This document shows positions 3,572 to 64,000 of a stretch of 64,000 nucleotides of DNA, in pieces. A program made the position numbers and the translations under genes. Numbering within the stretch: the first letter of the stretch is position 1; each line of letters begins with the position of its first letter. Source of the DNA: Rhyzopertha dominica (Eukaryota; Arthropoda; Insecta; Coleoptera; Bostrichidae). Under the pieces are notes generated by a model, which saw only the letters and a program-made list of their open reading frames with translations, searched no databases and had not been told where the DNA came from. Location of the stretch: contig QCXZ01000053.1 of assembly GCA_025024175.1 (NCBI GenBank), forward strand, positions 6,386,001-6,450,000, read 5' to 3'.

Positions 3572-4990
3572 ACAAAATTTTTAAAGTAAATAAACAAATC
3601 ACCAAGGAAGCGAGACGTCACAGAAACAACATGCCAACCTGATAAAAAAAGAACCTAATGACAAAAAAAGAACTACCTAACTACTAGATATACACGAACT
3701 ACTTGATAAAAGATAACTACAAAATAGCCTTCCAAATGTCACCTAACTAATAATTTCCACAATCTCTATTAAAATTGTTAGTATTCCTACAGATTTCTAT
3801 AGCTTCTTTTATTAGACGTTTGTGATAATATTTTTCTCTATGTCAAATTTTTGTTTTATCAAAGTCAATCATGTGTTTAGTTAAATAGTATTATTCAGCT
3901 ACGGAAGATTTATCTATCTGTTGTAGCCTAGTAGCATGTATCTGTTCTTTCAAATGCGTACCTACTTTTCTTTTAGTTTAACCTATGTAAAACTTCCCGC
4001 AAGAACAAATAATTTTGTAAACACCTTCACCCTCTAAATGTACTTTATCTTAAAATTTAAAATTTAAAAAAAAAATTAAAACTTAAAATTTTATCTAAAT
4101 TATTATATGTACTATCAACAACTAAAATATCCTGTTTTCTAAGCATCCTCTTTAATTTTTCTGAAAGGCCTTGTACATAAGGCAAACTCAACTTCAATTT
4201 ACTTAGTCGTGGCTGAGAATTTACTTGATTTGGATGAGCACTTTTATTAAAAACTGACCAAATATTCTTACTGCTATAACCATTTCTCACTAGCGCTGAT
4301 TTAAGATGATATATTTCTTTTGGTAAAGAAATTTCGTCTGAGATCCTTTGTGCTCTAACAATAAATAACGTCCTTATAAGACTATTGTTTTGAGAGGGAG
4401 GGTGGTGAGATGTGGCATGTAAATATCTGTCTGTATGTGTTGGTTTTATGTAAACCTTGTGTCCTAATTGTCCAGTGTCTATTCTGTAAATAAATTCAGT
4501 AAATTCAGAGAAGGTAAATTAGCATTGCTTTCTAATTCCATAGTAAATTTTATGTCGGAATTTTGACTGTTCAAATGATTTAGAAACCTACCCAACTCTT
4601 CTATACCATGGGGCCAAATAACAAGAGTGTCATCTACGTACCTATACCAATATTTTGGCTTAAACTGAAAACTGTTTATCGTTACTTGGTTAAAATTTTC
4701 CATAAACAAATTGCCTGCTACAGGACTTAGAGGTGAACCCATTGCAGAACCTGGTTTTTGCACATAAAAATTATCGTTCCATAAGAAATAAGTCGATTTT
4801 TAACAATGCTCAGATAATAATAATCTTTTATCAAGTAGTTCGTGTATATCTATTTGAACTTGTGTCAGGCAAATTTTGAGGTTCTTCGTCTTTGACAAAG
4901 ATTACAGGTGCAATCGAAATATCAGACTAATCTCCTTTTGTCAGTGTTATCAAGAGACAGCGATCTTTCCGAGAAAATATTATCTTATAT
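3445..4990 (-). pseudogene. Penelope-like element 1: RT plus GIY-YIG remnants
   Basis: Penelope-like elements couple a telomerase-like reverse transcriptase to a GIY-YIG endonuclease. The minus strand shows RT motifs GSPLSPVAGNLFME and YRYVDDTLVIW, followed by FTMELESNANLPSL (4763-4479). It continues with the connector LPYVQGLSEKLKRMLRK (~4190-4140). A truncated GIY-YIG start near 4025-3960 reads GVYKIICSCGKFYIG, then a stop. The N-terminal RT and most of the nuclease are missing, and several frameshifts and stops occur. It is inserted inside a hAT copy. Confidence 0.85.
4857..4985 (+). repeat. Inverted arm (right) of Penelope-like element 1
   Basis: Partner of the arm at 3444-3571 in opposite orientation. 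It contains ttgacaaag, then gatt/aatc pairing around a short loop, then cgaaatatc (4892-4923). This is a decayed hammerhead-like arrangement in which the CUGANGA and GAAAC/GUC boxes are mutated. Confidence 0.75.
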
Positions 4991-6600: not shown

Positions 6601-8806
6601 TAGTAATACAACTCTCTTACCGTTATTACAACCCTGCAATAAAATTTATCTTTTATCTCGAACAGCAGGCGGCCCCTCACAAGTTACCGCAAATAATCGG
6701 ATTACCATAAATTTGGGTCCGATTTTTTGAAAATGGTTAAGCAGGGTCGGATTATTTAAAGTTCACTACCGGTCAAACCAAAACTAGCATTCAGTCTTAG
6801 TATTTCTGTGCGCGAGACAAGAGAAGCGAAAAATGTCCCGTCCTTGGGAAAAAGCTGCTCCAAGTACCGCTCAGAATGAAGTTGCTGACGCTGACATGGA
6901 AGTGCAAATTGAAGAAAACAAGAGGAATCGTCGTTACCTTTCCCAAGATGCCAAAGAAATCGTAAAAAATGTATACAATTTTTTGATAAAAAAAAAGAGT
7001 GCAGTGCTCCGTTAAAAGTGACAAGTGAAATGGTTGGTGTCCCCTACACGACTGTGAGAGATATCATTGAAAATAAAGGCAATTCAAGAACATCACGCAA
7101 TTGGGAGAAATTTCTAAATATATCAAAAGAGCTTGGGATAGAAATTAAAAAAGTGATTCACCAAATGTATAAGGAAAATGAAGTTCCAACTACGGCAAGT
7201 CTGAAATTAAAACTTTTGGAATTAGGATATGACATAAGTTATTGCGAAGAGTGGTTCAGAAAATACTTGAGGAGCATCGGTTTTAATTACAGTACATTAA
7301 ACCAACGTTTGTCCATACTGGAATCAACCCGACTAAAAAGAATGAGATGGGATAATATATAAACGAAATCAGAAGGTACCGCCAAGAAAATCGTAATATC
7401 GTATATTTGGATGAAACGTGGTACGACACCCACGACTTGATAAAAAAAGGTCTGACAGATGGGACAAATAACTGCGTTCTGCAAGCACCACCTTCGAGAG
7501 GAAAAAGAATGATAATTCTTCATGCGGAAGGAAGTGATGGATGGGTGGAAAATGGCTTATTACTGTCAGCGAAACAGATCCAAAATTGTTCTGCTGACTG
7601 CCATTGCGACATGGACTCTGCACTTTTTGAAACTTGGTTTCAGCAGCAGTTACTGCCAGAGCTGCCACCAGGATCTGTTATAGTCATGGATAACGCGAGT
7701 TATCATTCAAAATTAATGAACAGGGCACCAACATTAGCTACAAAAAAAAGAAATAATTGATTACAAGAAAAAAAATAAAATTACAATTCCGGATGGAAAA
7801 GTTACCAAAAAAGATCTGTTGACAATAATAAAAAATCTCAACATACCTAAACAATATCGAGTTGATGAACTAGCGAAAGGACATGGACATATAGTTATGC
7901 GTCTGCCACCGGATTATTGCGTCCTAAACCCAATTGAATTAGTGTAGAGAACGCTTAAAAAAGGAATACGAAGAAACAATACATGTCCGCGTTTAAGTTC
8001 AGGAGTTGTAGATTTAGTGCGTAGAGAGGTAAGTAGTATAACGAAAGAACTGTGGAAAAGCTGTATTAAGCATGTTATTGAAATTGAAAATAGCTATGTA
8101 TCCCCAAATTTTCAAAATTTGATAATACATGTTAATGATGATGCTAGCAGTGATTCAGAATTTGACAGTAGTGATGATGATAATAATTAATATATTTGTT
8201 ATGTCGGTGTAAACTTGTTAGACTTTGTTGTAAAAATGTAATAGTTGTATGGAATTTTTTTGTATTTAGAGCTTTAGATAAAAAAATATGTATTCTTATT
8301 ATTTTCTTTTAAAATACTTGTCTTTTATTTACATATTTGGTTATGTTAACCGTTAACCGCATGTTTTCAATAGTTAAAAGATTGTAAAAATATTAAAATG
8401 TATTGTTTATAATTTTCGGCTAGCACAGCATTCAACATATTCACAGGATATAAATATTACAGGAATGTTAAGAATCAATATAAAAATATTTAGGAATGCG
8501 AGATTTTTCTTTTTATATTAAAAAATGCTCAGATGTGCATGTTGTCTAGTTAGATTACAAATTTCATTATAACTAGATATACTTTACCTGTGCAAAATAA
8601 TGTTGCTACTACTACGTACAATTCATTTTGAGACGTAATTAAAAACGATCGATGTAAAACCTCTTATTAACCGAATGATTAAAAATTCGCAAAATCACAG
8701 AGGGTTTGATTTATGAGGGGTCGCGTATCGTTGCAACTGTGCCTGTAAATGAAAGGTAAATAGTATTGCAGGGTTGTAAAAACGGTATAAGAGAGTTACA
8801 TTACTA
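6601..8806 (+). mobile_element. 2.2 kb TIR transposon with IS630/Tc1-like DDE transposase
   Basis: The terminal inverted repeats begin tagtaat and continue for roughly 90 bp (left 6601-6690, complement of right ~8715-8806), sharing aactctctta, acaaccctgcaata and cccctca blocks. Each end is flanked by TA (6599-6600 and 8807-8808), the target duplication expected for this superfamily. The single gene inside is broken. Confidence 0.85.
6833..8190 (+). pseudogene. IS630/Tc1-like DDE_3 transposase, broken
   Basis: The transposase that would cut and paste the surrounding element. It starts MSRPWEKAAPST and has an N-terminal helix-turn-helix region (residues about 30-150, including VPYTTVRDIIE). 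The catalytic acids are recognisable: YLDETW (~7405), VIVMDNASYHS (~7680) and LPPDYCVLNPIEL (~7905-7945). About 80 residues separate the second Asp from the Glu, far more than the 34-41 of classical mariner. The protein ends in an acidic tail (DSEFDSSDDDNN). It is inactivated by frameshifts near 7010, 7362 and 7745, and by a TAG replacing the Trp that usually follows NPIELV. Confidence 0.85.
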
Positions 8807-12575: not shown

Positions 12576-12884
12576 CAGTCGTCGAACGATATTTCGGAAA
12601 GGCGTTAGCTATCTTTCTCGGGACGGTGAAGATGGTGTTTATATGATGTCTTCTCAGCAGCCGTCCGATCTTATCTGTACATCCATTGACGAAGGGCAGG
12701 TATGCCGCAGCGATGTGCTCCTCTGGTTCCTTCCTCCGTGGATAATTGTTTATAGCATACCTGCCCTACGTCAATGGATGTACAGATAAGATCGGACGGC
12801 TGCTGAGAAGACATCATATAAACACCATCTTCACCGCCCCGAGAAAGATAGCTAACGCCTTTCCGAAATACCGTTCGACGACTG
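12576..12884. repeat. Long hairpin at the head of Penelope-like element 2
   Basis: 12576-12705 is the near-perfect reverse complement of 12755-12884 (130 bp arms, ~49 bp spacer), with few mismatches. The right arm is the start of the PLE reading frame, and the left arm is an inverted copy of it. A snap-back product during reverse transcription or a head-to-head insertion would give this. Transcripts would fold into one long hairpin. Confidence 0.9.
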
Positions 12885-13249
12885 AGGAGCTACAAGCACA
12901 AGGTGTGTACAGCATCCCATGCAGCTGTGGGAAGGTTTACATCGGACAAACCGAAAGGCACATCAGCACGAGAATCAATGAGCACATGAGGCACACCAGA
13001 GACCGGCAAGGTGTAGCAGAACATCGAATGGAGACTGGTCACATCATCAAATTCGAGGAAGCACAAATGCTGTCGAGAGAAGCGAGATTCTGGCCGAGAC
13101 TGTACAAGGAAGCCATCGAAATCCAGAAGAACCCGCACAATTACAACCGAGACCGGGGCATCGACCTACCTGGAATCTGGAAACCGGTCATGCGTAACAA
13201 CGCCCACGCGTCAGTGACCCGGACGAGCATAAATACCCGAACAGGCTAG
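12746..13249 (+). pseudogene. Penelope-like element 2: C-terminal RT tail plus GIY-YIG endonuclease
   Basis: A 167-codon open frame. It opens with the PLE connector (LPYVNGCTDKIGRLLRRHHI) and runs into an intact-looking GIY-YIG nuclease: GVYSIPCSCGKVYIGQ, then TERHISTRINEH, then GVAEHRMETGH and KEAIEIQKNPHNYNRD. In the family, this nuclease nicks the target for priming. The catalytic RT is missing, so the copy is 5'-truncated even though this part is uninterrupted. No upstream promoter for it is visible. A hammerhead motif follows 25 bp after the stop. Confidence 0.85.
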
Positions 13250-13273: not shown

Positions 13274-13307
13274 CTGAGGAAGACACCGACATGAGTGTCG
13301 AAACGTC
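13274..13307 (+). ncRNA. Hammerhead ribozyme core in Penelope-like element 2
   Basis: CTGAGGA (13274-13280) is followed by one A, stem II GACAC (13282-13286) pairing with GTGTC (13295-13299), then GAAAC (13300-13304) and GTC (13305-13307). This is the CUGANGA / stem II / GAAA / short stem III / GUC order of minimal type I hammerheads described in Penelope elements. Only about 3 bp of stem I (CTT/AAG) are evident, so activity may need dimers or may be weak. Confidence 0.75.
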
Positions 13308-14174: not shown

Positions 14175-15502
14175 CGAGGCATGTTTTTTAAGTAAGTACC
14201 GTTTTGCGATTCCGCCGGCGCAGCGCTACAGTCTGCGTTCCGCGCATGCGCGCTGGTTACCTACATCTCTTGTCTACGCACTGACGCCATTACAGTTTGA
14301 TTCTTCATTGTATACGTTGTTTACTGAGTGTTTAAGATGCCTCCGACAATCGTGAGTCCCGCCGATTGTGAAATACGAGCTGTTATACGATTTCTAGTGC
14401 TAAAGGCGTAAAACCGATCGATATTCATCGTGAGATCTGTGAAGTTTACGGACAAACCATTATGAGTGATGGAATGGTATTTTGGGTGAGAGCATTTAAA
14501 GATGGCCGCACAAATGTGTATGATGAAGAACGGAGTGGGTGTCCTTCGGTCGTTAATGAAGATTTGTGCAGAAAGTGAACGAAAAGGTGAGAGAAAACAG
14601 ACGCTTTACAATTTCATCATTGTGCGACTGCTTTCCTCAATATTCTCGTAGTGTTTTGTATCGCATTGTGACCTAGAACTTTAATTACCGGAAATTGTGT
14701 TCACGTTGGGTTCCGAAAATGTTGACGGATTTGCACAAAACCCAAAGTTTAGGCAGTGCATTGACTTTCCTTGAGCGGTACCACAATGAAGGTGAAGATT
14801 TTTTAGACCAAATAATGTTACTGGAGACGAAACATGAGTGGCCTACGTCACACCCGAATCGAAACAACAATCCATGAAATGGCGACATTCATCATCACCC
14901 AAAAAAGTAAAGTTTAAGCAAACAATTTCTGACCGGAAAATCATGTGCACAGTTTTTTGGGACAGAAAAGGAGTATTGCTAGTGGAGTTTCTGCCTCGTA
15001 ATGAGACAATCAATGCAGCGTCTTATTGTAAGACATTGAATAATCTGCGTCGTGCAATCCAGAACAAAAGACGTGGCAAGTTGAGTAAGGGTATCGTTTT
15101 GCTGCATGACAATGCCCGTCCACATGTGGCTAATCGGACCAAAGATCTCATCAAATCTTTTAAATGGGAAACTATAGATCATCCTCCATACAGCCCTGAT
15201 CTGGCGCCCAGCGACTACCATTTGTTCCTGCACTTGAAGAAACACCTGGGTGGTCACCGTCTTCAATACGATAACGAAGTCGAAACATTTGTGATACAGT
15301 GGTTAACAAGTCAGGCGGCAGAATTTTATGAGGATGGTATTCAAAAACTGGTGCCACGTTATGACAAGTGCCTCAATATTCACGGAAATTATGTAGAAAA
15401 GTAGATTATGGTACAGGCTTTCATGTAAGATAAAATTATTGCGATATCTTTGGACGTCTTTTTTTAATTCCAAAACGGTACTTACTTAAAAAACATGCCT
15501 TG
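14175..15502 (+). mobile_element. Complete mariner transposon (1,328 bp)
   Basis: TIRs are ~31 bp: cgaggcatgttttttaagta at the left, and a right end whose complement differs at one or two positions. Both are flanked by TA (14173-14174 and 15503-15504). Length and structure are those of a full-length mariner. The internal gene is dead. Confidence 0.92.
14337..15404 (+). pseudogene. Mariner transposase (D,D34D), inactivated
   Basis: The catalytic domain is well preserved. It has GDET for the first Asp (Asp codon 14826-14828), HDNARPH for the second and YSPDLAPSDYHLF for the third. Counting residues gives exactly 34 between the last two, the mariner signature. The N-terminal DNA-binding half starts MPPTIVSPAD but meets stops within ~25 codons. 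A one-base frameshift occurs just before VTGDET, and the Trp codon after GDET is now TGA (14835-14837). No active enzyme can be made, but the TIRs could still respond to a related transposase. Confidence 0.92.
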
Positions 15503-18120: not shown

Positions 18121-20953
18121 TTAACCTAGCATTCCGTAAGTTATTTGCAAAAGTAAATTAATAACTTTTGCCGCAATATATGAGTATGAACCACAGAACT
18201 GAGCTGTATAATGTCTGGGAATTGAAAGGAGGTAAATATCTCTAACATTAAGACAATGAACATTTTTTCTGGGAACTAATTTAGTTTTTAAGTAAGAAGA
18301 ATTGCCCTTCTTTACTATGTGGATACACAATTTACTATAGTGAAGGAAAGTTTGTTCGAAGACCTTTAACCAGCCGAGATCATGAATAGCGCCACTTATA
18401 TGATCCCTCCTTCGCAACCCGCAAATAAAACGGGCACAGGAATTTTGTATCCGTTAGAGCCTTCTATAATTATATTTTGTAATACAGGGGCTATATACTA
18501 AATTGCAGTACTTTATATGAGACATTACAAGTGCTTCCGATATGATGCGCTTACATCTGAAGTTTAGTATTGCTCTGCTTTGATACAGAAGTTTCAGACT
18601 GGAATAAGATTTTTTTTAAATATGATTGATGTGAGTATTAAATTTCATGTCAGTGTCTATATAAANCNCTAAATTTTTTGAAGATTNTATAATAGGAAGT
18701 GTTTCATTGTCAATGTTAATACTNANCTGATTCATATATTGCATGCGGCTCTTTCTACCAAATACCATTACTTTAGATTTATTAGGATTAAGAGATAAGC
18801 AATACTTTTTTGATACATTGAAGAGCGTTGCTAAGTCTTTATTTATGTACATATTGCTCTGCAAAATATCATTGGCTTAGCATGAGTAGTACAACTGAGT
18901 GTCGTCCGCATAGAAGTGAAACTTACAATATCTGAAACATTCCTCAAAACGGGAAGTGTACAAAGCAAAAAGTATCGGGCCTAAAATTGAACCTTGAGGA
19001 ACACCGCTAATGCATACTGCAGGTGCTGATATAAATGTTGTTATAAATGACTGATTGTTGGCGATTGCACAAATAATTTTGAAGAAGTTTTACTGACAAA
19101 TTTAAAAATCCTGGGAATTGTAACATCGACGACATCAATTTGTGATTAATTCTGTCGAACGCTTTAGTAAAATCAAGCAATACCAAAATTGTAAGCAAGT
19201 TTTTGTCAGTCGCAGCAATAATGTCATCGGTCACAGTTAATAAGGCAGTGGTGCAACTATGTTGGGATCTGAAACTAGACTGCAGGTTAGGAAGCAATTT
19301 ATACTGTTCCAGATGCACTTGAATTTGTTTATACAAAATCTTCTCCATTACCTTCGAGAGTGTTGGCAGAATACACACCGGCCGCAGGTCTCAAAGGTGT
19401 TCTGGAGAATTTATTTTAGGCAATGGTTTAACATGGGCTATCTTCCAGCACTCTGGAAATTGACCTTTCTCTATACAGCAATTTACTATGTGCACTATAT
19501 ACTTCAATATGTATGGACAAAACAGGAGCAACATTGACTTACTAATGTTATCAGAACCTATAGCACAAGACTTAATACTAAACAAGGTTTCGCGGATGGT
19601 TTCTTCATCTACCATGGTAAAATCAAGCAAACTACCAACACTACGATGCTTATTAATAGGTAAAAAATCCAATAATTCTTGATCAGGGTTAACTTGTGAT
19701 TGAGACGAGTTTTTAAAATATCTGTTTATATTTTCTACATTTTGAAGATGTTCTCGAATATTAGATTTATTATTTTTAGAATAAATATTTAAATTACGCA
19801 ATTCATAGAACAACCTCTTATTACTCCTGTCACTGTCCACTACATAATTAATATATGCTTTTTTCTCAAGTTTTATTGTTTTGTTAGTTAAGTTTCTCAA
19901 CAATTTGTAATATTGCCAGTGGATGGGATTACCACTCCTTTTAAATCTTTGAAATGCTTTGTTACGAAGTAACATGAGGAACTTTAAATTGTCAGTCAAC
20001 CATGGCTTGCAACGTGCATTTCTTGCAACTATTGATTTTAAAGGAGCATGTTTATCAAAAAGTTCCAATAAGTAATTATTAAATATAAGTAATTTGTAGT
20101 CAACGTTGTCATTATATAAAATATTATCAAAAGGTATCTCGACTAAATCAGTGTGAAATTTTTGTTTGTCAATATCAAGCAAATTATGTCGCTTAATTTT
20201 GTCAGGTTCATTTTTTTGTTTTGTGCCTAAGTTTAACGTTAATACAACTAGGGAATGATCCGACCCAATGTCGGTATGTTCTATTACCTCACAACTGACT
20301 ATATTATTATTGTTACTACACAAGAACAAGTCCAATAAAGAACAGGATGTACGCGAAACTCTGGTTGGCTCATCCACCAGCTGATAAAGTGAAAGTTGTT
20401 CTAAAAAGTCATTCAGGTAAGTATATGCAGCAGAGTTTGGTTGCAAACAATTAATATTGAAGTCTCCACAGCAAACTATTTCCTCCCTGGAAGCTCTAAC
20501 AGAAATCATGGACGTCTCCAACTGTTCGAAGAAGTTCACTATAGACATCGATGGTGGTCGATAAACAACTATAACAGATATCAGAGATAACCTGCATGGT
20601 TTAAATTTTATCCATAATTGTTCAATACTTTGTGAATTTGAAACGGACAATACAGATGACTGAAAAGCACTTTTAATATAAATGGCAACACCTCCTCCCC
20701 GACTACCTCTATCTCTTCTATACAGCTTATAATTAGTAAGTTGGATATTATCATCGATATTACGAGCATCGAGCCAAGTTTCTGTCAAGCATACTACATC
20801 ATAATCGTGGGCATTTAAGAAATCTTTTAATTGTAGAAAACGCGCACTCAGCGAGCGAATATTTAAATTAACTATTCTTAAAAATCTACCCATATTCACA
20901 AAAGAAAAATAATATATACAGCTATGAAAATTAACCAATATATAATTAAACAA
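18121..20953 (-). pseudogene. CR1-like ORF2: endonuclease plus reverse transcriptase, lightly damaged
   Basis: The first 520 codons hold an APE-type endonuclease, which nicks the target. It is read from LRIVNLNIRSLS through DVVCLTETWLD, GGGVAIYIKS and CCGDFNINC to GSDHSLVVLTL. The RT follows: LDFTKAFDRINH (motif A), [19 protein letters not shown] (motif B) and [10 protein letters not shown] (catalytic). The thumb and C-terminal region (RIQNSCARFICGLRRRDH) end near 18121. Damage is modest: an in-frame TGA near 19389 (SPEHL-stop-DLRPV), a frameshift just before motif B near 19010, a TAA after the YADD box, and further stops in the thumb. The element was probably active fairly recently. Confidence 0.9.
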
Positions 20954-20956
20954 GAA

Positions 20957-21778
20957 TTAATGGNCATCATTCAAACACTGCTGGTTAAAAATTACAAAGA
21001 TTTGACTGTCTTCCGATTTGCGCATATAAATACGACCGTTTTTCACCCATAAGTACTTAATATTGGCATTTTTCTTAAACTCTCTACACTTGTTGAGCAG
21101 AAGTTTATTCTGCACTGTAAGATGTTCGTTGACATACACAGGGTTACGTGACATTACTGTTTGTTTCCACTCATCTTGTATATCACGAACACAGAGGTTA
21201 CGACGTACTTTTCTAGCCTTCACGAACTCCTGTTTTTTAATATGTGAGATGAACTTTACAATGATTGGTCTTGATTCATTGACATTCCGCTTCTTTCCCA
21301 CCCTATGGCAATTGTCAATGTCCGTCACGTTCATTTCGACCCCCATCACCATTCCGATTTTAGTGACTAGCTGAAGGACATTTTCTCCTGCTACTTTTGG
21401 CACTCCTTCGATTTCTATATTATTTCTGCGAGTATATTGTTGCAATTCATTCAGTTCTGATTTCAGCTTCTCATTTGAAGTCTCTAAGTTAGTGCATTTG
21501 CATGTCAGTCGCGCAATCTCTTCACGGGAAGCAACTAGGATATTTTCCATGCTTTTTATGGTCTTTGAATTCTCCTCTATTTTTTCATGACATGTGTCGC
21601 TTGATTTGATTAACTGTTTGTTGACAAGAGTTAATTCCGCTAGTTGCTTCAATATGTCACGTGACGAAGGCCCAGCACAGTCCTTGCAACGCCAAGTTTC
21701 CGATGACTTGTCCGCCAGGCATGAATTGTGGCAAAAATTGCCACAGTCTCCATTATCACATTTTAAACCTTTTCGCTG
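20957..21778 (-). CDS. CR1-like ORF1: PHD-type zinc knuckle, coiled coil and Baculo_FP/L1-like domain (5' truncated)
   Basis: ORF1 proteins bind the element RNA and act as chaperones. The open frame begins immediately after a TAA at 21779-21781 with no ATG, so the true start was probably lost by 5' truncation. The first ~30 residues contain FCHNSC and WRCKDC, the second half of a PHD finger. A coiled coil follows (KTIKSMENILVASREEIARL, then NEKLKSELNELQQ), and then a globular domain with RRNNIEIEGVP, NCHRVGKK, RPIIVKFISH and the C-terminal NKCREFKKNA. This order is typical of Baculo_FP/Transposase_22-like ORF1 proteins. The frame ends 4 bp before ORF2 opens. Confidence 0.75.
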   Translation of the reverse strand, partial: QRKGLKCDNGDCGNFCHNSCLADKSSETWRCKDCAGPSSRDILKQLAELTLVNKQLIKSSDTCHEKIEENSKTIKSMENILVASREEIARLTCKCTNLETSNEKLKSELNELQQYTRRNNIEIEGVPKVAGENVLQLVTKIGMVMGVEMNVTDIDNCHRVGKKRNVNESRPIIVKFISHIKKQEFVKARKVRRNLCVRDIQDEWKQTVMSRNPVYVNEHLTVQNKLLLNKCREFKKNANIKYLWVKNGRIYMRKSEDSQIFVIFNQQCLNDXH

Positions 21779-27717: not shown

Positions 27718-28390
27718 TTTCATGAGCGTACTCTGGACCCTTAAAGTTTCCCATATATTTAGCTGGTTCATTATGTCTGTACACCTAAAAATTGTCTTAT
27801 TTACAAAATATTTCACAATTTTCATCCAGAACTCATATTTGACACTTGCAAATGACCTCTAACAAGTCAAATAGTTTCCAAGCTTAATCGATGCCATGCG
27901 TGTTTTGAAGCTGTAACTGCAACATTCTTATTGTTACGAATCGTTGTCTTAGGGCGGATATAGCTTTAAAAGACTATCTTGGTCAGGATGAGTCATAACA
28001 CGATTTCTGCTTAGTTCAGCTCTTCTACCTTTTCTTACAAAGATTGTTCAACTAACTACTGTTATATAGAATCACATCAGAATCTGTCATATATTCGGTG
28101 ATAAATCTAACTTTTGTACCAAATTTCTAAATTCACGTTATATTTTAATAATTAATAAAAAAAACAAAAAGAACTAAAAATGTATCCGAAGTCACGTTTA
28201 TGTAAGTCAGTTTATTTAATATAAATTTTAGGAATCCAGTAAAAGCATTATCAGCACGAATTAAAACCTGGTGTGTTGTTAAAAATGCAATTAAAGTAGT
28301 CGGTTAATATTTGAGAGCAATGCACTGGCGATCTAAGAAGGTTGGCTTGACGCATAATGCTGAGGCATTTGTCATTCTGAGTTCTAATAA
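27718..28390 (+). repeat. Dispersed repeat family R1, copy A
   Basis: Opens catgagcgtac, then tttagctggttcatta, cacaattttcatccagaac and aggaatccagtaaaagcat, and ends agcaatgcactggcgatcta and gctgaggcatttgtcattct. All of these occur in the same order at 62126-62620. About 320 bp between 27845 and 28165 are unique to this copy, either an insertion here or a deletion in the other. Confidence 0.8.
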
Positions 28391-33609: not shown

Positions 33610-36600
33610 TATACTTGTATTCAGCGAATCGGAGACGAAAAAATTTTAAGGTCAAAAAGAACAAAGAGATGTTTTGTGATTTTCGACAAAAAATAGATTT
33701 AGCTCAAAATCGACGTACAGATGTATTTTGAACTGCAGAATTCAAAAATGTGCTCTAAAATGAGCTAGGACTGCGGGCGGCCTAAATAAGGACACTTTCC
33801 GAGCGAACCGTTGTAGCTAGCGACCAACTGAGGCCATTCCGAAATTCAGGAGGTCCAAATCAGTAAGTATACTTGTATTCATCTGAATCGGAGACGAAAA
33901 AATTTTAAGGTCAAAAAAGAACAGCCTTGGACGTTTTGTGATTTTTGACAAAAAATAGATTTAGCTCAAAATCGACGTACAGATGTATTTTGAACTGCAG
34001 ATTTCAAAAATGTGCTCTAAAATGAGCTAGGACTGCGGGCGGCCTAAATAAGGACACTTTCCGAGCGAACCGTTGTAGCTAGCGACCAACTGAGACCATT
34101 CCGAAATTCAGGAGGTCCAAATCAGTAAGTATACTTATATTCAGCAGAATCGGAGACGCAAAAATTTTAAGGTCAAAAAACAAAGGGGTTAGCCNCGGAC
34201 GTTTTGTGATTTTTTAACAAAAAAAATAGATTTAGCTCAAAATCGACGTGCATATGTATTTTGAACTGCAGAATTCAAAAAATGTGCTCTAAAATGAGCT
34301 AGGATGTAGGGCGGCCTAAATAAGGACACTTTCCGAGCGAACCGTTGTAGCAAGCGACCAACTGAGGCCATTCCGAAATTCAGGAGGTCCAAATCAGTAA
34401 GTATACTTGTATTCATCTGAATCGGAGACGAAAAAATTTTAAGGTCAAAAAAGAACAGCCTTGGACGTTTTGTGATTTTTGACAAAAAATAGATTTAGCT
34501 CAAAATCGACGTACAGATGTATTTTGAACTGCAGATTTCAAAAATGTGCTCTAAAATGAGCTAGGACTGCGGGCGGCCTAAATAAGGACACTTTCCGAGC
34601 GAACCGTTGTAGCTAGCGACCAACTGAGACCATTCCGAAATTCAGGAGGTCCAAATCAGTAAGTATACTTATATTCAGCTGAATCGGAGACGGAAAAATT
34701 TTAAGGTCAAAAAACAAAGGGGTTAGCCTCGGACGTTTTGTGATTTTTTAACAAAAAAATAGATTTAGCTCAAAATCGACGTGCATATGTATTTTGAACT
34801 GCAGAATTAAAAAAATGTGCTCTAAAATGAGCTAGGATGTAGGGCGGCCTAAATAAGGACACTTTCCGAGCGAACCGTTGTAGCAAGCGACCAACTGAGG
34901 TCATTCCGAAATTCAGGAGGTCCAAATCAGTAAGTATACTTGTATTTATCTGAATCGGAGACGAAAAAATATTAAGGTCAAAAAAGAACAAAGGGGTTAG
35001 CCTTGGACGTTTTGTGATTTTTGACAAAAAATAGATTTAGCTCAAAATCGACTTACAGATGTATTTTGAACTGTAGATTTCAAAAATGTGCTCTAAAATG
35101 AGCTAGAACTGCGGGCGGCCTAAATAAGGACACTTTCCGAGCGAACCGTTGTAGCTAGCGACCAACTGAGGCCATTCCGAAATTCAGGAGGTCCAAATCA
35201 GTAAGTATACTTGTATTCAGCTGAATCGGAGACGAAAAAATTTTAAGGTCAAAAAAGAACAAAGGGGTTGTTAGCCTCGGACGTTTTGTGATTTTTGACA
35301 AAAAATAGATTTAGTTCAAAATCGACGTACAGATGTATTTTGAACTGCAGATTTCAAAAGTTTGCTCTATAATGAGCTAGAACTGCGGGCGGCCTAAATA
35401 AGGACACTTTCCGAGCGAACCGTTGTAGCTAGCGACCAAATGAGGCCATTCCGAAATTCAGGAGGTCCAAATCAGTAAGTATACTCGTATTCAGCTGAAT
35501 CGGAGACGAAAAAATTTTAAGGTCAAAAAAGAACAAAGGGGTTGTTAGCCTCGGACGTTTTGTGATTTTTGACAAAAAATAGATTTAGTTCAAAATCGAC
35601 GTACAGATGTATTTTGAACTGCAGATTTCAAAAGTTTGCTCTATAATGAGCTAGAACTGCGGGNGGCCTAAATAAGNACACTTNCCGAGCGAACCGTTGT
35701 AGCTAGCGACCAACTGAAACCATTCCGAAATTCAGGAGGACCAAATCAGTAAGTATACTTGTATTCAGCTGAATTAGAGACGAAAAAATTTTAAGGTCAA
35801 AAAAGATCAAAGAGACGTTTTGTGATTTTTGACAAAAATAAATTTAGCTCAAAATCGAAGTACAGATGTATTTTGAACCGCAGATTTCAAAAATTTGCTC
35901 TATAATGGGCTAGGACTGCGGGCGGCCTAAATAAGGACACTTTCCGAGCGAACCGTTGTAGCTAGAGACCAACTGAGGCCATTCCGAAATTCAGGAGGTC
36001 CAAATCAGTAAGCATACTTGTATTCAGCTGAATCGGAGACGAAAAAATTTTAAGGTCAAAAAACAACAAAGGGCCTTGGATGTTTTGTGATTTTTGACAA
36101 AAAATAGATTTAGCTCAAAATCGACGTACATATGTATTTTGAACTGCAGAATTCAAAAATGTGCTCTAAAATGAGCTAGGACTGCGGGCGGCCTAAATAA
36201 AGACACTTTTCGAGCGAACCGTTGTAGCTAGAGACCAACTGAGGCCATTCCGAAATTCAGGAGGTCCAAATCAGTAGGTATACTTGTATTCAGCTAAATC
36301 GGAGACGAAAAAATTTTAAGGTCAAAAAAGAACAAAGGGGTTAGCCTCGGATGTTTTGTGATTTTTGACAAAAAATAGATTTAGTTCAAAATCGACGTAC
36401 AGATGTATTTTGAACTGCAGATTTCAAAAGTTTGCTCTATAATGAGCTAGGACTGCGGGCGGCCTAAATAAGGACACTTTCTGAGCGAACCGTTGTAGCT
36501 AGCGACCAACTGAAACCATTCCGAAATTCAGGAGGACCAAATCAGTAAGTATACTTGTATTCAGCTGAATTAGAGACGAAACAATTTTAAGGTCAAAAAA

Positions 36601-36910
36601 GATCAAAGAGACGTTTTGTGATTTTTGACAAAAAATAGATTTAGCTCAAAATCGACGTACAGATGTATTTTGAACCGCAGATTTCAAAAATTTGCTCTAT
36701 AATGGGCTAGGACTGCGGGCGGCCTAAATAAGGACACTTTCCGAGCGAACCGTTGTAGCTAGCGACCAACTGAGGCCATTCCGAAATTCAGGAGGTCCAA
36801 ATCAGTAAGTATACTTGTATTCATCTGAATCGGAGACGAAAAAGGTCAGGTCAGGTTAGGTCAGGTCAAAAAAGAACAAAGAGGTTAGCCTTGGACGTTT
36901 TGTGATCTTT
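33609..36910. repeat. Satellite array, ~12 monomers of 259-274 bp
   Basis: Using aaataaggacac as landmark, monomers recur at 33784, 34046, 34318, 34580, 34851, 35122, 35396, 35670, 35929, 36195, 36466 and 36726. The first and last are partial or disturbed. Two monomer types (one with gaacagcc, one with caaaggggttag) alternate at the left, so 33850-34380 and 34384-34916 form a duplicated dimer. Further right, another block recurs at an offset of ~797 bp. Short minus-strand frames inside monomers have no coding support. Confidence 0.95.
36842..36866 (+). repeat. TCAGG pentamer block inside the last satellite monomer
   Basis: Five consecutive pentamers ggtca, ggtca, ggtta, ggtca, ggtca interrupt the monomer where aaaattttaaggtcaaaa is expected. 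In TCAGG register this is the beetle telomere motif with one TTAGG unit. It could also be local slippage from the aggtca already present in every monomer. Confidence 0.6.
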
Positions 36911-36920
36911 GACAAAAAAT

Positions 36921-45480: not shown

Positions 45481-45584
45481 AATATAAACTACCCATAAAA
45501 TGTTAAAGATAATTAAATAAACAATCTAAATTACTTAGACTTGTACATGATGTATTGATAAATAGATGGTTTACAGGTAAAAGC

Positions 45585-45705
45585 AGTTCTATGCCGTGCT
45601 GTCTGCACTAGACCTAAACTGCACTGATGAGCTATAATGATAGCGCAATAGATCTATCTACAGTTGGTTGCGGTACAGACAGCACAGCATAGACGTGCAT
45701 TCTAA
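45585..45705 (+). repeat. Solitary diverged copy of the 352 bp hammerhead repeat (partial)
   Basis: ttctatgccgtgctgtct, ctagacctaaactgcactg and gacagcacagcatagac match the reverse complement of 63500-63625. Only the ribozyme-bearing ~120 bp are present. Confidence 0.85.
45617..45665 (+). ncRNA. Hammerhead ribozyme motif, decayed copy
   Basis: The order is AACTGCA, CTGATGA (45624-45630), stem II GCTAT/ATAGC around AATG, GCAA (45645-45648), stem III ATAG/CTAT and TACAGTT. Stem II differs from the other copies at both partners of one pair (GCTGT/ACAGC there), so pairing is kept. The invariant GAAA is changed to GCAA, which should abolish cleavage. Confidence 0.8.
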
Positions 45706-55539: not shown

Positions 55540-57540
55540 TTACTGCAGAGACCGCAGCGTTGCTATCAGCTGATCAAGTTCCGCCTTGTAGCCAATCAGC
55601 TGTTGCTGTCTGGCGGCACACTGCTCGCAGCTTCTATTTGTAATGTTCTTTTGGGCCAAGCCATGTACTATAGCTCTTATCCTGTTCTCTCTTTCTTCAT
55701 ATCTCTTCTCTAAATGTACTATCTAAAACAGAAAGACAAAGATGAATAGAAGCTGCATTAAGAAGGCATGTGAGTTATGCCTGCCAAAAAAGCATATTTC
55801 GTATATTTCGGACACAGTTGATAATAATTGCTTTTTCTGATTACCACGAAACGACGTAAATCTAGTAGGCAAGTTCATTGTAAGGGTTAAGTGGAATGTC
55901 TGACATTTTGAGAATTTTCGGGGTGGTGAACTCGAAAATGGATCCAAAAATCGTCCAAGTTTATGCCTTACGTGAAAAACCCGAAAATAATGTACTCCTA
56001 CCTTTCGTTGTAATAAAACTACGTCACTTTCGGGAGTGCCACTACCATTGAGAGGTACTTCAAAACCCTTTAGAGACTCTAAAGAGTTGAGCCTGTTGTT
56101 TAAGTGATCCCTTTCCACAGTAACAACGGCAAGCTCTTCCTTGGCAGTACTGAGTTGATTTTGCAAACTGCTGATAGACACCTGGTGGACCTCTAACTGT
56201 TCCCTGAGAGGAGTTATGTTAGATAAGTATGTGGCTATCTCCCTTTCGTGGGCTTCTTGCAAGGCGCTCAGCTAAAAGCAAATGGTGTGCTAAAAAGCTC
56301 TAAAGGCGGAAGCGCAAGCCGGACTTACATCTTGTAACCGTTTCGCCTTTAAGCTTTGATAATCCCCTTCGATTCGACACAACTGTAGCTTCATTTTGTC
56401 TCTCTCCGCTCTGACTGCTCTGAGCTCGTCCTCCAAGGACCGATCGCTTAAATCGGCTGTGCTATCTTGTCGAGACTGTAAAGCAAGTCGTTCGGGATAA
56501 TTACTGATCTGTCTGTCAGTTACGCTCCTCAAAGTGCCCTCTCTCTCCTTCTGAAGCTTTCTATTGGTGTTTCTCAACTCCTCAATTTCTTTGCGCAACT
56601 TTGCCATGGTTTTGTCTTTGTTTGTCACATCCGCTTGCAATCCGCGTATGGTAGCTAAAAGGTGGGTTTCTTCCCTAGGTTCAACGACCTTATCGGGCTT
56701 TTTCGATGTAACAAGTTGCTTGTTCTGGTTTAATTTTCCATCAGTTTGCACCGCTTTGCTGGTCTGCTCCTTCTGCGGAATCTTTTGTTCATCAAAGCTG
56801 GTTTGAGTGTAGACATCGTAACTATCCGATTTTCGCTTCAGCTGGTTTTTTAGATCAGCCACGTGGAGCTCTAGGTCTTCTATGTGATTTTCATACTTCA
56901 GCTTCATTTGGTTAAACTTGTCTTGTACTTCGAGGAATATTTTAGACGACTGGGAATCTCGGGTGGCGGCCCCGGCTTCTAATGTTTTGATTCGCTCCTC
57001 TAAAACTTTTCTAGCGGTCAAATTCGAATCTGCAGCGTCGTTTTTAGCAGCTACTATCAAGGCGGAAACTGAATCTGGATGTTTCCTTGTTATGATCCTT
57101 TCCATTTCTTTTATTTGTCTGTTCAGGTCTTGAATACACTTCGCATCTTTCTCGTGCTGGATTTTTAGCTGCTTAGATTGCAGCTTTTCCGTTTCCAGGA
57201 GCTTGCCGAGGTTGTGTTCGCTTTCTTGGAGGGCCTCTCTATTTTTCTGAACAGCGGCTAATTGCGTTTTGTATTTAGATAACGTAATATCTATTTCAGC
57301 AACTTGTCTTTCTAGGATCTTATTGGACGATAATAGTTCCTCGTATGATATTTTAAGCATTTGATACGATTTATTTAAACTATCTAATTGGAGTTGTAGG
57401 GCAGTGTTAATTTCTTTGGTATCTTTTAGTTCTTCTAAGGTCTTGTCTAGCTCCAAGTTAATTTCGGGTGATTGCATGCTCTTTGCATTTAGAGCCTGTC
57501 TTGTTTGTTCCAACATCGTGTTAGTATCCCTGAGAAGTAT
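55540..57540 (-). CDS. Coiled-coil centrosomal-type protein, CEP162-like (last three exons)
   Basis: Three exons on the minus strand, 56329-57540, 56002-56271 and 55540-55722. All are in phase 0 with GT-AG borders (donors gtaagt and gtagga), giving 554 residues to a TAA. Almost the whole length is predicted coiled coil by heptad pattern (for example LDKTLEELKDTKEINTALQL and LEDELRAVRAERDKMKLQL), broken by a basic Ser/Thr/Gln-rich linker (TQTSFDEQKIPQKEQ). The block RITRKHPDSVSALIVAA style segment (RKHPDSVSALIVAAKND) followed by LEERIKTLE is what makes me think of CEP162, an axoneme-binding transition-zone protein. The last exon ends KAELDQLIATLRSLQ. No ATG is assigned because the first exon shown starts at a splice acceptor. 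I could not find upstream exons in the window. Confidence 0.6.
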
Positions 57541-57559
57541 CTGCAAACAAAACGTGAAT

Positions 57560-58150
57560 GTAATTATAATATTGTACAGGCAATTGAAAAATAATTTTTT
57601 TCTTTCGCGAGGTTTCGAATTTAAATAAATTGCAGTGTTGGTGAAATAGAAATATATTTGTTTTTTTTTTCAAATATTGCTCCAGTTTCTCTTAATTTCT
57701 ATGAGCGTGGATGACACATCTGAAATAGTTTTGTTTACAGTCTCTTCACAGCTGTTTCATGTACAGTACCACATCAAAAGGCTTCTAATTTCCTTAAACT
57801 TACTATTATACCACACAACGCCGTACTTCTATAATTTGAAAACTGTTGATACATACAGTGTGTCCCACCCCATGTGCCTGTGCATGGGTATCTTTGTGAA
57901 AAGCTACAAAGTAGGTTATATTCTGCGCTCAACAATAATCCGTCTTCGAATTTAAGTTACCTGCTACAGATTTTGAGATGAAAATGAAAGGTCGATTTTT
58001 TATAGCGCTTATAACTTTTTTGTAGAAATTCCAAAAAAACACTTGAGCACATTTTGTAAAGTTGTTTTGAATCCATTTGCGTTTTAAATCCACAAAAAAC
58101 AGCTTTTTATTGCCAGTTGTTTATTTAGAATAGTTGGTATTGCCGAAGTT
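57560..58150. other. Intron or intergenic sequence, no supported exon
   Basis: AT-rich. A cagtgtgtcccaccccatgtg block near 57858 resembles a transposon end. No further exons of the coiled-coil gene are recognisable. Confidence 0.45.
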
Positions 58151-58300: not shown

Positions 58301-58380
58301 AGGGCCCTGATGGTGCAGTAATTAGCGCATGTGACTAGTAATCAAAAGGTCCCAAGTTCAAATCCTGATCAGACCTGGCA
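58301..58380 (+). repeat. tRNA-like sequence or SINE head (plus)
   Basis: Plus strand has tggtgcagtaattagcgc (A-box-like), tgactagtaatcaaaagg and gtcccaagttcaaatcc (B box). The shared anticodon region and B box show it is the same family as the minus copy 70 bp away, in inverted orientation. The loop ctagtaa would place AGT at the anticodon, but the stem is poor. Confidence 0.6.
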
Positions 58381-62125: not shown

Positions 62126-62620
62126 GGGCGTACCGAAGGGCGGGCAAGGGGGGGGGGCAGCTGCTCCCCCGCTGGACCTGGATTTACAACTCTGGGACCT
62201 TCCAATTTCCTATACATTTAGCTGGTTAATTATGTGTGTACACCTAAAAATTGTTTCTACAAAAGTGTAAATATAGTAAAATTTATCGGCAACTCTATTT
62301 CACAATTTTCATCCAGAACTCATATTTGACCCAGATTACATTTTAACAATTAATACAAAAAAAAACTAAAAATCCATCCGAACTCACGTTTATGAAAGTC
62401 AATTTATTTAATATAAGTTTCAGGAATCCAGTAAAAGCATTATCAGCACGAATTAAAACCCGGTGTGTTGTTAAAAATGCAATTAAATGTATTTCAGTTT
62501 ATTTAAATGAAACTTAATTTGGTTAAAATATTAAGTAGTCGGTTAATTTTTGAGAGCAATGCACTGGCGATCTAAGAAGGCTGGCTTAACGCATAATGCT
62601 GAGGCATTTGTCATTCTGGG
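62126..62620 (+). repeat. Dispersed repeat family R1, copy B (most complete)
   Basis: Begins catgggcgtaccgaagggcg with a run of nine or more G and a cccccgctgg complement, then continues with the blocks shared with 27718-28390 and 1-200. A G-rich catgggcgtacc start is a frequent transposon end in animals. Copy A has the same end with the G run deleted. Confidence 0.8.
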
Positions 62621-62624
62621 CATT

Positions 62625-63498
62625 CAGTAAATACGTTAAGTGTTTTTCAAATTTAAAAAAAAAAGAAGAAACATGCAGTATTTTGTTCGGCTTTTTATTC
62701 ATACAACAACAGTTATAGAAATGAATAATAAGCTTTAATATTTTTTCATAACTGCAATGTATAAACATTTTAAAACAACAAATAAAAATCTTAACATTAA
62801 CATAACACAAAAATTTGTAGATATTTCTGGTCCAACGACGGTGACAACCAAAATTGCACACAAAATATTGTTCTATGGCTTTGGCATCATCCTTGCGACA
62901 AAGTATATAATATTCGATCGTATATCAGCTTTTCCTGATTTGAAAAATTTATTTTGTTTGCTTTTTTAATGAAGTTATCGATACTTTAGGCATCAAATCA
63001 TTTATAAGCGTCCCACTGGCCTGTCAAGTAACAATATTTCCTCAATTGTTCTCAGAGGCTTACTATGTGATTTAAAAAATGGTATAGCTGGTTTGTTTTT
63101 GAAAAAAAAAATTGATATATAATTTTAAAAAGAAAACAACCTTTTCAATAAAATTATGGCCAAATATAACTTCCATAGAAAAAAAGCAAGGTTGTTGTAA
63201 CTCTAAAACGACACATAGTGCTTTTATAAGTTATCTATTCTAATTTTTTATATAAATTAGCAGGGCAAAAAGATTCTGATTGCCTTTTTTTTACTTTTTA
63301 AGTTATTGATTATTTCCGTAGCGCCCGGGGTTTTTATATTATTGTATTATCGCGAAAACTTCGTCCCTCTAGCTTTGATACTAACTGAGTTACCTTATAA
63401 AAACATTGAAAATGAGACACCCTGTACATAAAAACAAATGACATCTTTTTGTCCCAATCATTATTGCCTACAACTAAAATCAGTAATAGCTACCTAAT
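62625..63498. other. Intergenic AT-rich, no supported gene
   Basis: No gene. gacaccctgtaca at 63417-63429 resembles the complement of the gggtgtc end motif of family R2. Confidence 0.5.
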
Positions 63499-63537
63499 TA
63501 AAATGCATGTCTATGCTGTGCTGTCTACACCTCAACT

Positions 63538-63586
63538 AACTGCAGATAGTACTATTTCGCTGTCATTACAGCTCATCAGTGCAGTT
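63538..63586 (-). ncRNA. Type I hammerhead ribozyme, unit 1
   Basis: Read on the minus strand: stem I AACTGCA (63586-63580); core CTGATGA (63579-63573); stem II GCTGT (63572-63568), loop AATG, ACAGC (63563-63559); core GAAA (63558-63555); stem III ATAG (63555-63552), loop TA, CTAT (63549-63546); cleavage nucleotide C (63545); stem I return TGCAGTT (63544-63538). Every invariant core base is present and all three stems are perfectly paired. Beyond an internal loop, 63595-63612 pairs with 63513-63530 with one mismatch, extending stem I by 18 bp. Confidence 0.93.
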
Positions 63587-63889
63587 TAGGTCTAGTGTAG
63601 ACAGCACGGCATAGAACTGGTTTTGCTTATATACCAAGGCAATGGTATGATGAAAGTAAGAATTTAGGATGGCAATTCCATCTGTCAGCATTACACTTAC
63701 ATGATGACAAAGCCACCTAGCTGCCTTAACGGGTACTACTTCCTAAAGGAAGTGACCTGTAGCCTGACAAATTGACATGCAACTGCATACTTCAATTTGA
63801 CAGCAGGCCCCCACGGCACTTTTTGCTGACGGGCAAGAACCAACATACATTAAAATGCATGTCTATGCTGTGCTGTCTACACCTCAACC

Positions 63890-63938
63890 AACTGCAGATA
63901 GTACTATTTCGCTGTCATTACAGCTCATCAGTGCAGTT
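63890..63938 (-). ncRNA. Type I hammerhead ribozyme, unit 2
   Basis: Identical in core and stems to unit 1, displaced by exactly 352 bp. Cleavage of a multimeric transcript at both sites would release a 352-nt monomer. Confidence 0.92.
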
Positions 63939-64000
63939 TAGGTCTAGTGTAGACAACACGGCATAGAACTGGTTTTGCTTATATACCAAAGCAATGGTAT

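Follow-up and report, generated by a model that had tools for sequence, protein, structure and literature searches.

A non-LTR hammerhead retrozyme whose head-to-head insertions resemble those of Penelope-like elements

The window, by which we mean the whole stretch of 64,000 nucleotides of DNA analysed here, ends inside a tandem repeat that most likely belongs to a single insertion of a beetle retrozyme, non-autonomous and of the non-LTR kind. Its copier is most likely Penelope-type machinery, with a circular RNA as the probable template. The family carries type I hammerhead sequences and is present in thousands of copies. Most of the insertions that we sampled consist of two halves joined head-to-head; their outer ends fall at two preferred sites of the monomer, as a rule with one end of each kind, target duplications flank half of all insertions sampled, and the inner junctions are scattered. 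These insertions resemble the published insertion signature of Penelope-like elements, and taken as a pattern, by analogy with the elements in which that signature was described, the link appears strong.

The repeat unit and its hammerheads

The 352-bp direct repeat is represented in the window by one complete unit and the beginning of a second, which are identical at 149 of 152 positions (3 differences). On the minus strand of both units there is a type I hammerhead in which CTGATGA, GAAA and C17 are all intact, with a stem I of 7 bp, a stem II of 5 bp and a stem III of 4 bp closed by a 2-nt loop. The features are located as follows.

63497..63848, minus strand: unit 1 of the repeat, 352 bp
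63849..64000, minus strand: unit 2, first 152 bp, then the end of the window
63538..63586, minus strand: hammerhead 1, type I (stems I, II and III and core)
63890..63938, minus strand: hammerhead 2, type I
63545 (C17) / 63544, minus strand: predicted cut of hammerhead 1
63897 (C17) / 63896, minus strand: predicted cut of hammerhead 2
63545..63896, minus strand: 352-nt monomer expected from the two cuts
63595..63615, minus strand: 5' strand of the outer arm extending stem I (hammerhead 1)
63510..63530, minus strand: 3' strand of the outer arm extending stem I (hammerhead 1)

The monomer is numbered 1-352 on the reference 63545-63896, position p corresponding to window position 63897 - p; position 1 is the first base past the cut and position 352 is C17.

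A descriptor scan for type I hammerheads on both strands of the 64 kb matched at these two hammerheads and nowhere else, and gave 0 matches in 50 first-order Markov windows. The core and all three stems were found in each unit, in agreement with the preliminary description, which had read two intact minus-strand hammerheads here and had placed a cut between 63545 and 63544, the same site as predicted in our analysis. Its outer arm of 18 bp had to be revised; in unit 1 the arm consists of 13 bp, one C.A mismatch and a further 7 bp. Loops 1 and 2 of both hammerheads are of a size that would suit the predicted tertiary contact. In a covariance-model search of 701 nt, Rfam Hammerhead_HH9 (RF02275) matched at both hammerheads, with 28.0 bits (E 8.8e-5) at one and 25.7 bits (E 4.9e-4) at the other, but these scores lie well under the gathering cut-off of 52 bits, which is why a gathering-level Rfam scan of the window reported no hammerhead. 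Weak microRNA matches in the Rfam searches with the hammerheads and with the solo copy (below) were set aside as reflecting mere hairpin shape.

The sequences of the hammerhead hairpins fold far better than shuffled sequences (z -7.1 and -7.2). In the minimum-energy fold of the linear hairpins stems I and II are kept and stem III is swapped for another pairing. The circular monomer is predicted to fold at -128.0 kcal/mol (none of 200 Markov shuffles folds as low; z about -4.1), and forcing the hammerhead costs 3.7 kcal/mol relative to this best fold, which again swaps stem III. Whether linear or circular, the best predicted fold is different from the active hammerhead fold.

The window also contains a diverged solo copy of the family.

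45567..45705, plus strand: single diverged copy with 87% over 139 nt, whose end lies near the same 3' site

Its core is broken (GAAA to GCAA) and two stem I pairs are lost; two other pairs show compensatory changes, and it scores 18.2 bits against HH9 (E 0.085). Among the three copies in the window two pairs have changed on both sides, a covariation that is weak when taken alone because 46 of 500 shuffles reach the same level.

Copies across the genome and the anatomy of insertions

We scanned the genome (479,159,283 bases in 138 contigs) for hammerhead cores with at most 2 mismatches and found 2,472 on the forward and 2,346 on the reverse strand, whereas the core pattern read backwards gave 0 and 0 in the same scan. 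Further copies with a conserved core, on which the preliminary description had made its reading depend, are therefore present in large number, with 4,818 cores in the whole genome. A stem II variant, in which a G-C pair is replaced by an A-U pair and the core remains intact, was found at 271 and 277 places.

Three samples of insertions of the family were drawn. Sample 1 comprises 38 clusters from 135 matches (40 of 2,408 candidates scored) and is biased to close, long copies. Sample 2 was taken from the first 30 exact-core places on contig C1, two of which (L058 and L067) were repeat views, leaving 28 insertions. For sample 3 we took the first 20 places at which the stem II variant, a diverged subfamily, occurs. 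Samples 2 and 3 favour insertions that hold the core, and hence one of the two end classes described below (T48).

The core was intact in 100 of the 102 hammerheads of sample 1, a figure to be read with the bias of that sample to close copies. In the same sample the hammerhead has a variability of 0.0056, the outer arm one of 0.0096 and positions 38-274 one of 0.0148; 12 of 352 windows of 55 nt vary as little as the hammerhead, and the five lowest all overlap it. Changes on both sides of a pair were also seen. At pair 25-96, 95 of the 96 hairpins in sample 1 have A-U, and G-C is seen in 6 of 28 hairpins in sample 2 and in 22 of 23 in sample 3; pair 54-61 likewise changes together, sample 3 having been chosen by that very change. 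The changes at these two pairs probably reflect two old events rather than many.

Outside its own genome no member of the sequence family turned up in the sequence collections scanned. Exact-core scans of the viral and genome contig collections gave one match in each, and neither was accepted as a relative. The viral match (L001, an IMG/VR contig) has at L001:11780-11840 what can be read by eye as a hammerhead of type I, independent of ours, with the same stem II and nearly the same loop; Rfam reported no hammerhead on this contig at gathering score, and the likeness is probably convergent. The bacterial contig (L002) has no other hammerhead parts visible by eye. A scan of the viral contig collection for the outer arm gave no match.

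Two-ended insertions were resolved with a tandem reference. In each of them an antisense half comes first and a sense half second; the 5' ends of the RNA meet inside and the 3' ends lie outside. This head-to-head arrangement with two outer ends was found in 57 of the 86 insertions of the three samples, and 48 of the 57 combine an end close to position 48 with one around 243-247. For counting, ends at 42-57 were classed as T48 and ends at 236-258 as T247. Sample 1 (n = 38) holds 24 mixed T48/T247 insertions, 11 one-sided ones, 1 T247/T247 pair and 2 with one end elsewhere; sample 2 (n = 28) holds 15 mixed, 12 one-sided (3 of them off both sites) and 1 T247/T247; sample 3 (n = 20) holds 9 mixed, 6 one-sided (1 off the sites), 5 with one end elsewhere and no T247/T247 pair. 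T48/T48 pairs did not occur (0 of 86). Where both ends fall at the sites in samples 1 and 2, 39 of 41 insertions are mixed (P 4e-10 for independent ends at one half). A 3' end was present on one side at most in 29 of 86 insertions (11/38, 12/28 and 6/20), and 11 of 86 have an end off both sites (2, 3 and 6 in samples 1, 2 and 3). The T48 class is sharp, with 32 of 56 ends at 47-48, and the T247 class is broader, at 238-256. On the monomer the two sites are 199 nt apart, or 153 nt the other way round. T48 adjoins the loop of a predicted hairpin (36-53), T243-247 is a predicted unpaired stretch directly before another (249-266), and by eye the two have the string A(U/C)UUU(A/C)AU in common just ahead of the end.

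The insertion at the end of the window (L011) has this form. It is a head-to-head insertion of 719 bp that extends beyond the window, with an antisense half of 546 bp starting from T48 and then a sense half of 180 bp (67 to 246), the two overlapping by 7 bp.

63497..64000, minus strand: visible part of the antisense half, which continues for about 42 bp beyond the end of the window
63491..63500, no strand: left target duplication TACCTAATTA, 10 nt, its last bases overlapping the end of the element
63497, minus strand: site T48 in this insertion, the 3' end of the copied RNA (position 48)
63650..63654, minus strand: site T243-247, the family's second end site, which lies within the monomer

The right copy of TACCTAATTA lies beyond the window, after G000:C53:6450215. 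CTGATGA occurs twice in the insertion, both times within the antisense half, and there is therefore only one monomer that could be cut out. The preliminary description had expected a transcript through the array to fall into 352-nt monomers; the unit length of 352 stands, but this locus could free a single complete one, 63545-63896.

Target duplications of at least 9 nt were found at 43 of 86 insertions (26/38, 11/28 and 6/20), the remaining 43 being without one, whereas the same procedure applied to mismatched flank pairs gave such a repeat in only 4 of 2,542 (2/1,406, 2/756 and 0/380). The 37 duplications of samples 1 and 2 are 81% A+T and measure 9-15 nt, a length in which some bases are shared with the end of the element. 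When the 37 joined flank pairs were compared among the collected loci, uninterrupted relatives appeared for one, L015, whose joined flanks match L053 and L072 as the sole matches (identity 74-75% across 104 nt, including a single gap base). That stretch of L053 and L072 also matches the beetle GIY-YIG relatives treated in the last section.

The inner 5' ends are spread across the monomer. That they might lie at the hammerhead cut was an idea that arose from fragmented matches, before the tandem reference was used, and it was rejected, since with that reference only 2 of 50 and 0 of 32 fall within 3 nt of the cut. As the inner ends lie away from the cut, the insertions themselves do not display cleaved RNA. 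In a strict exact-match walk at least 3 nt are shared at 13 of 39 junctions, against 2.0 expected by chance (one shares 86 nt), and a gap is left at 17 of 39.

Mode of insertion and nature of the template

The preliminary description had called the repeat retrozyme-like, a reading borne out by the type I hammerhead, the 352-nt unit, the monomer GC content of 43%, the tandem units, the target duplications and the thousands of dispersed copies. Metazoan non-LTR retrozymes, for which insects are named in passing as hosts in the accessible text of the paper describing them (Cervera & de la Pena 2020, PMC7229834), share the type I hammerhead, a unit of about 170-400 nt, a GC content below 50%, tandem units, many dispersed copies and, where duplications are present, a length of more than 4 bp for these. 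Such retrozymes are further marked by a tertiary contact between loops 1 and 2, by self-cleavage with abundant linear and circular RNA, and by having neither a protein-coding gene nor LTRs, a primer binding site or a polypurine tract. Their helper is left open there, whereas most two-ended copies here are head-to-head with two end sites. The word "inverted" is absent from the main text of that paper, and a description of head-to-head retrozyme insertions was not found in the freely accessible literature searched; within the retrozyme literature so covered, the head-to-head form with two sites is one that we have not seen before. Two other hammerhead systems are more distant, as far as the accessible accounts of them go. 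Plant LTR retrozymes are likewise non-autonomous retroelements with a hammerhead, but theirs is of type III, with LTRs and 4-bp duplications, as opposed to type I and duplications of about 10 bp here, and the circular RNA found there would be a putative one here. The pDo500 repeat of Dolichopoda cave crickets (PMC2837043) is an insect repeat with a hammerhead and compensatory stem changes too, but it is a satellite of about 500 bp for which we found no two-ended insertion form described in the accessible part of that source.

As to the helper of animal retrozymes, a 2020 review describes their repeats as without a motif that would betray it (PMC7761336), and a 2024 review still names both LINEs and Penelope-like elements (PMC11722881), as far as the accessible text of each goes. 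The signature at the 86 sampled insertions points to Penelope-type copying. In the available descriptions, rotifer Penelope inserts have an inverted pLTR and are mostly head-to-head; one of their ends may carry a 31-bp tail, and several cases have duplications of 8-10 bp while others have none (PMC3846280); the Penelope enzyme of Anolis both cuts the two strands and extends them, starting at two internal RNA sites that are not homologous to the target (PMC11167929). The retrozyme thus shares with Penelope-like elements the head-to-head inverted insertions and, in the cases described, the 8-10 bp duplications (PMC3846280), along with differing 3' ends, starts on RNA unrelated to the target, and a hammerhead (PMC3846280, PMC11167929). 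It differs from them in three respects. Penelope-like elements encode a reverse transcriptase, usually together with GIY-YIG, and the retrozyme encodes neither, the longest stop-free run in the 719-bp insertion being 67 codons; the Penelope hammerhead, in the accounts available, is minimal and that of the retrozyme complete; and the alternative 3' ends described for Penelope differ by a tail of 30-40 bp, as against end sites 199 or 153 nt apart.

We suggest that a transcript of the antisense half would carry the two hammerheads, from which a 352-nt RNA would be cut out. This RNA would probably be circularised, and the circle could then serve as template for a Penelope enzyme acting as the copier of retrozyme RNA. 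Both strands of the target would be cut about 10 bp apart, and each free DNA end would prime copying at one RNA site (48 or about 243-247), the copying travelling partway, once or several times round the RNA. The two cDNAs would be joined 5' to 5', often via microhomology, and the outcome would be an insertion of head-to-head form that has both kinds of end, one of each, and a target duplication around it.

A more specific proposal, which we advance tentatively and with somewhat less than even confidence, is that a two-headed Penelope-type enzyme holds one RNA circle at 48 and about 243-247, one site for each cut strand, in a single event. The head-to-head form in rotifers was attributed, in the available text, to self-priming (PMC3846280). 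If the two-headed arrangement is true, priming on two strands would be favoured over that earlier proposal of self-priming on antisense RNA, and the retrozyme would then be a natural and very sensitive record of Penelope insertion. The one-of-each rule and the scattered junctions agree better with priming on two strands than with self-priming. The two RNA sites (48 and 243-247) are now directly testable with purified enzyme.

The nature of the template is a separate step, and a linear multimer transcribed from an array, instead of a circle, would be compatible with the rest of this scheme. Pieces longer than 352 nt make up 48 of 70 in sample 1 and 7 of 49 in sample 2, with lengths up to 1,747 nt, and a cut linear monomer could not yield such pieces spanning the cut junction. 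Unit pieces differ by 0.0118 within one insertion and by 0.0102 between its opposite halves, against 0.0233 between different insertions (0 of 1,000 label shuffles as low); unfiltered and with gaps, the values are 0.0197 for the same half, 0.0158 for the other half and 0.0295 for different insertions. Units of one insertion, both halves included, are thus closer overall than units across insertions, and in 28 of 35 insertions the likeness inside exceeds that to other insertions. Private variants are shared by all units of a locus in 13 cases and confined to one unit in 138, and L033 and L045 each have one private variant in all 6 covering unit pieces, in both halves. This likeness fits one RNA copied repeatedly from both ends, for which a circle would serve best; a uniform source array could account for it as well. 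The multimer has further points in its favour, namely the inner ends away from the cut site, the 7 of 35 insertions that are not more alike inside (L011, at 0.0270 vs 0.0242, is among them), and the finding, in the available account, that the main substrate of the Anolis Penelope enzyme is unprocessed RNA and that hammerhead mutants insert normally in vitro (PMC11167929). On balance we regard a linear template as rather unlikely, though it is the strongest of the alternatives.

Mobilisation by a LINE would be a different mode of insertion, with target-primed copying in which twin priming gives the inverted halves. Twin priming by LINEs yields inverted insertions with duplications, duplications of 9-15 nt also fall in the LINE range, and LINE-like remains lie within the window itself. 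In twin priming, however, the second start is at varied places, whereas both starts cluster here at two sites, with one of each in 48 of the 57 two-ended insertions. Nor was a common poly-A or simple-repeat tail present at the displayed ends of sample 1, where L027 adjoins a TTA/TTG repeat. We consider this explanation improbable.

Spread as satellite DNA by recombination, with the hammerhead as a passenger, is far less probable still: the tandem units would suit it, and hammerhead satellites are described from crickets and newts in the sources available, but the copies are dispersed short insertions with two end sites, one of them at a site with uninterrupted relatives, and the target duplications make this an unlikely main mode. 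Movement of the whole head-to-head unit as a DNA transposon, or as a foldback element bounded by terminal inverted repeats, would account for the inverted structure and the duplications but can be dismissed almost entirely, for the two ends differ (48 vs 243-247) and are not mirror images, and both the inner junctions and the lengths change from one insertion to the next.

Penelope-like fragments and other features of the window

Two fragments within the window, which we take to be Penelope-like from their joined GIY-YIG and polymerase-like sequence, are related to the same beetle proteins.

12576..13249, plus strand: fragment I, read as Penelope-like; its frame 12746-13249 is related to beetle GIY-YIG proteins
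3801..4682, minus strand: second fragment, decayed, related to the same beetle proteins as fragment I

Fragment I is itself head-to-head, with arms at 12576-12705 and 12755-12884 that are 98% complementary and 49 nt between them. Among its named relatives, those nearest to it are uncharacterized proteins from the longhorn beetle Anoplophora glabripennis. Among five beetle relatives of the fragments, Pfam GIY-YIG was above the cut-off in two and just below it in one; Pfam found no GIY-YIG in the window frames of either fragment, and searches of NCBIfam and of solved structures with the beetle relatives returned nothing that names them. In our reading, fragment I is a putative example of the proposed kind of helper. 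Just past its frame, at 13274-13303, a hammerhead-like string CTGAGGA...GTGTCGAAACGTC is visible by eye; it may represent a minimal Penelope hammerhead that contains one additional base. Elsewhere in the genome, at L063:1019-1686, a GIY-YIG-related coding piece (1019-1144) abuts a retrozyme array that begins at 1145 and has its outer end at the unusual position 12; two RNAs may have been joined into a chimera here, or the locus may have been rearranged later.

The window contains further repeats. To the left of the retrozyme lies one at 62336-62618 with relatives at 1-186 (93%) and 28138-28379 (76%), and a satellite array at 33671-36920 has a period of 271 bp, 12.1 copies and 90% matches. The LINE-like remains (19007-21778, minus strand) include an endonuclease domain at 19391-20956 and, by eye, a reverse-transcriptase-like frame at 19007-19390. 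Transposase frames were found at 14838-15404, with Transposase_1, and at 7356-7760, with DDE_3 just under the Pfam cut-off. A tRNA-like sequence at 58304-58376 scores 32.9 bits against a gathering score of 29. Finally, the host shows itself as a beetle in a frame of 459 amino acids (56290-57669, minus strand), which matches beetle CEP162, with unnamed matches of up to 76% and named matches of 61-64%, including those of Trypoxylus, Rhamnusium, Holotrichia, Tribolium and Tenebrio.
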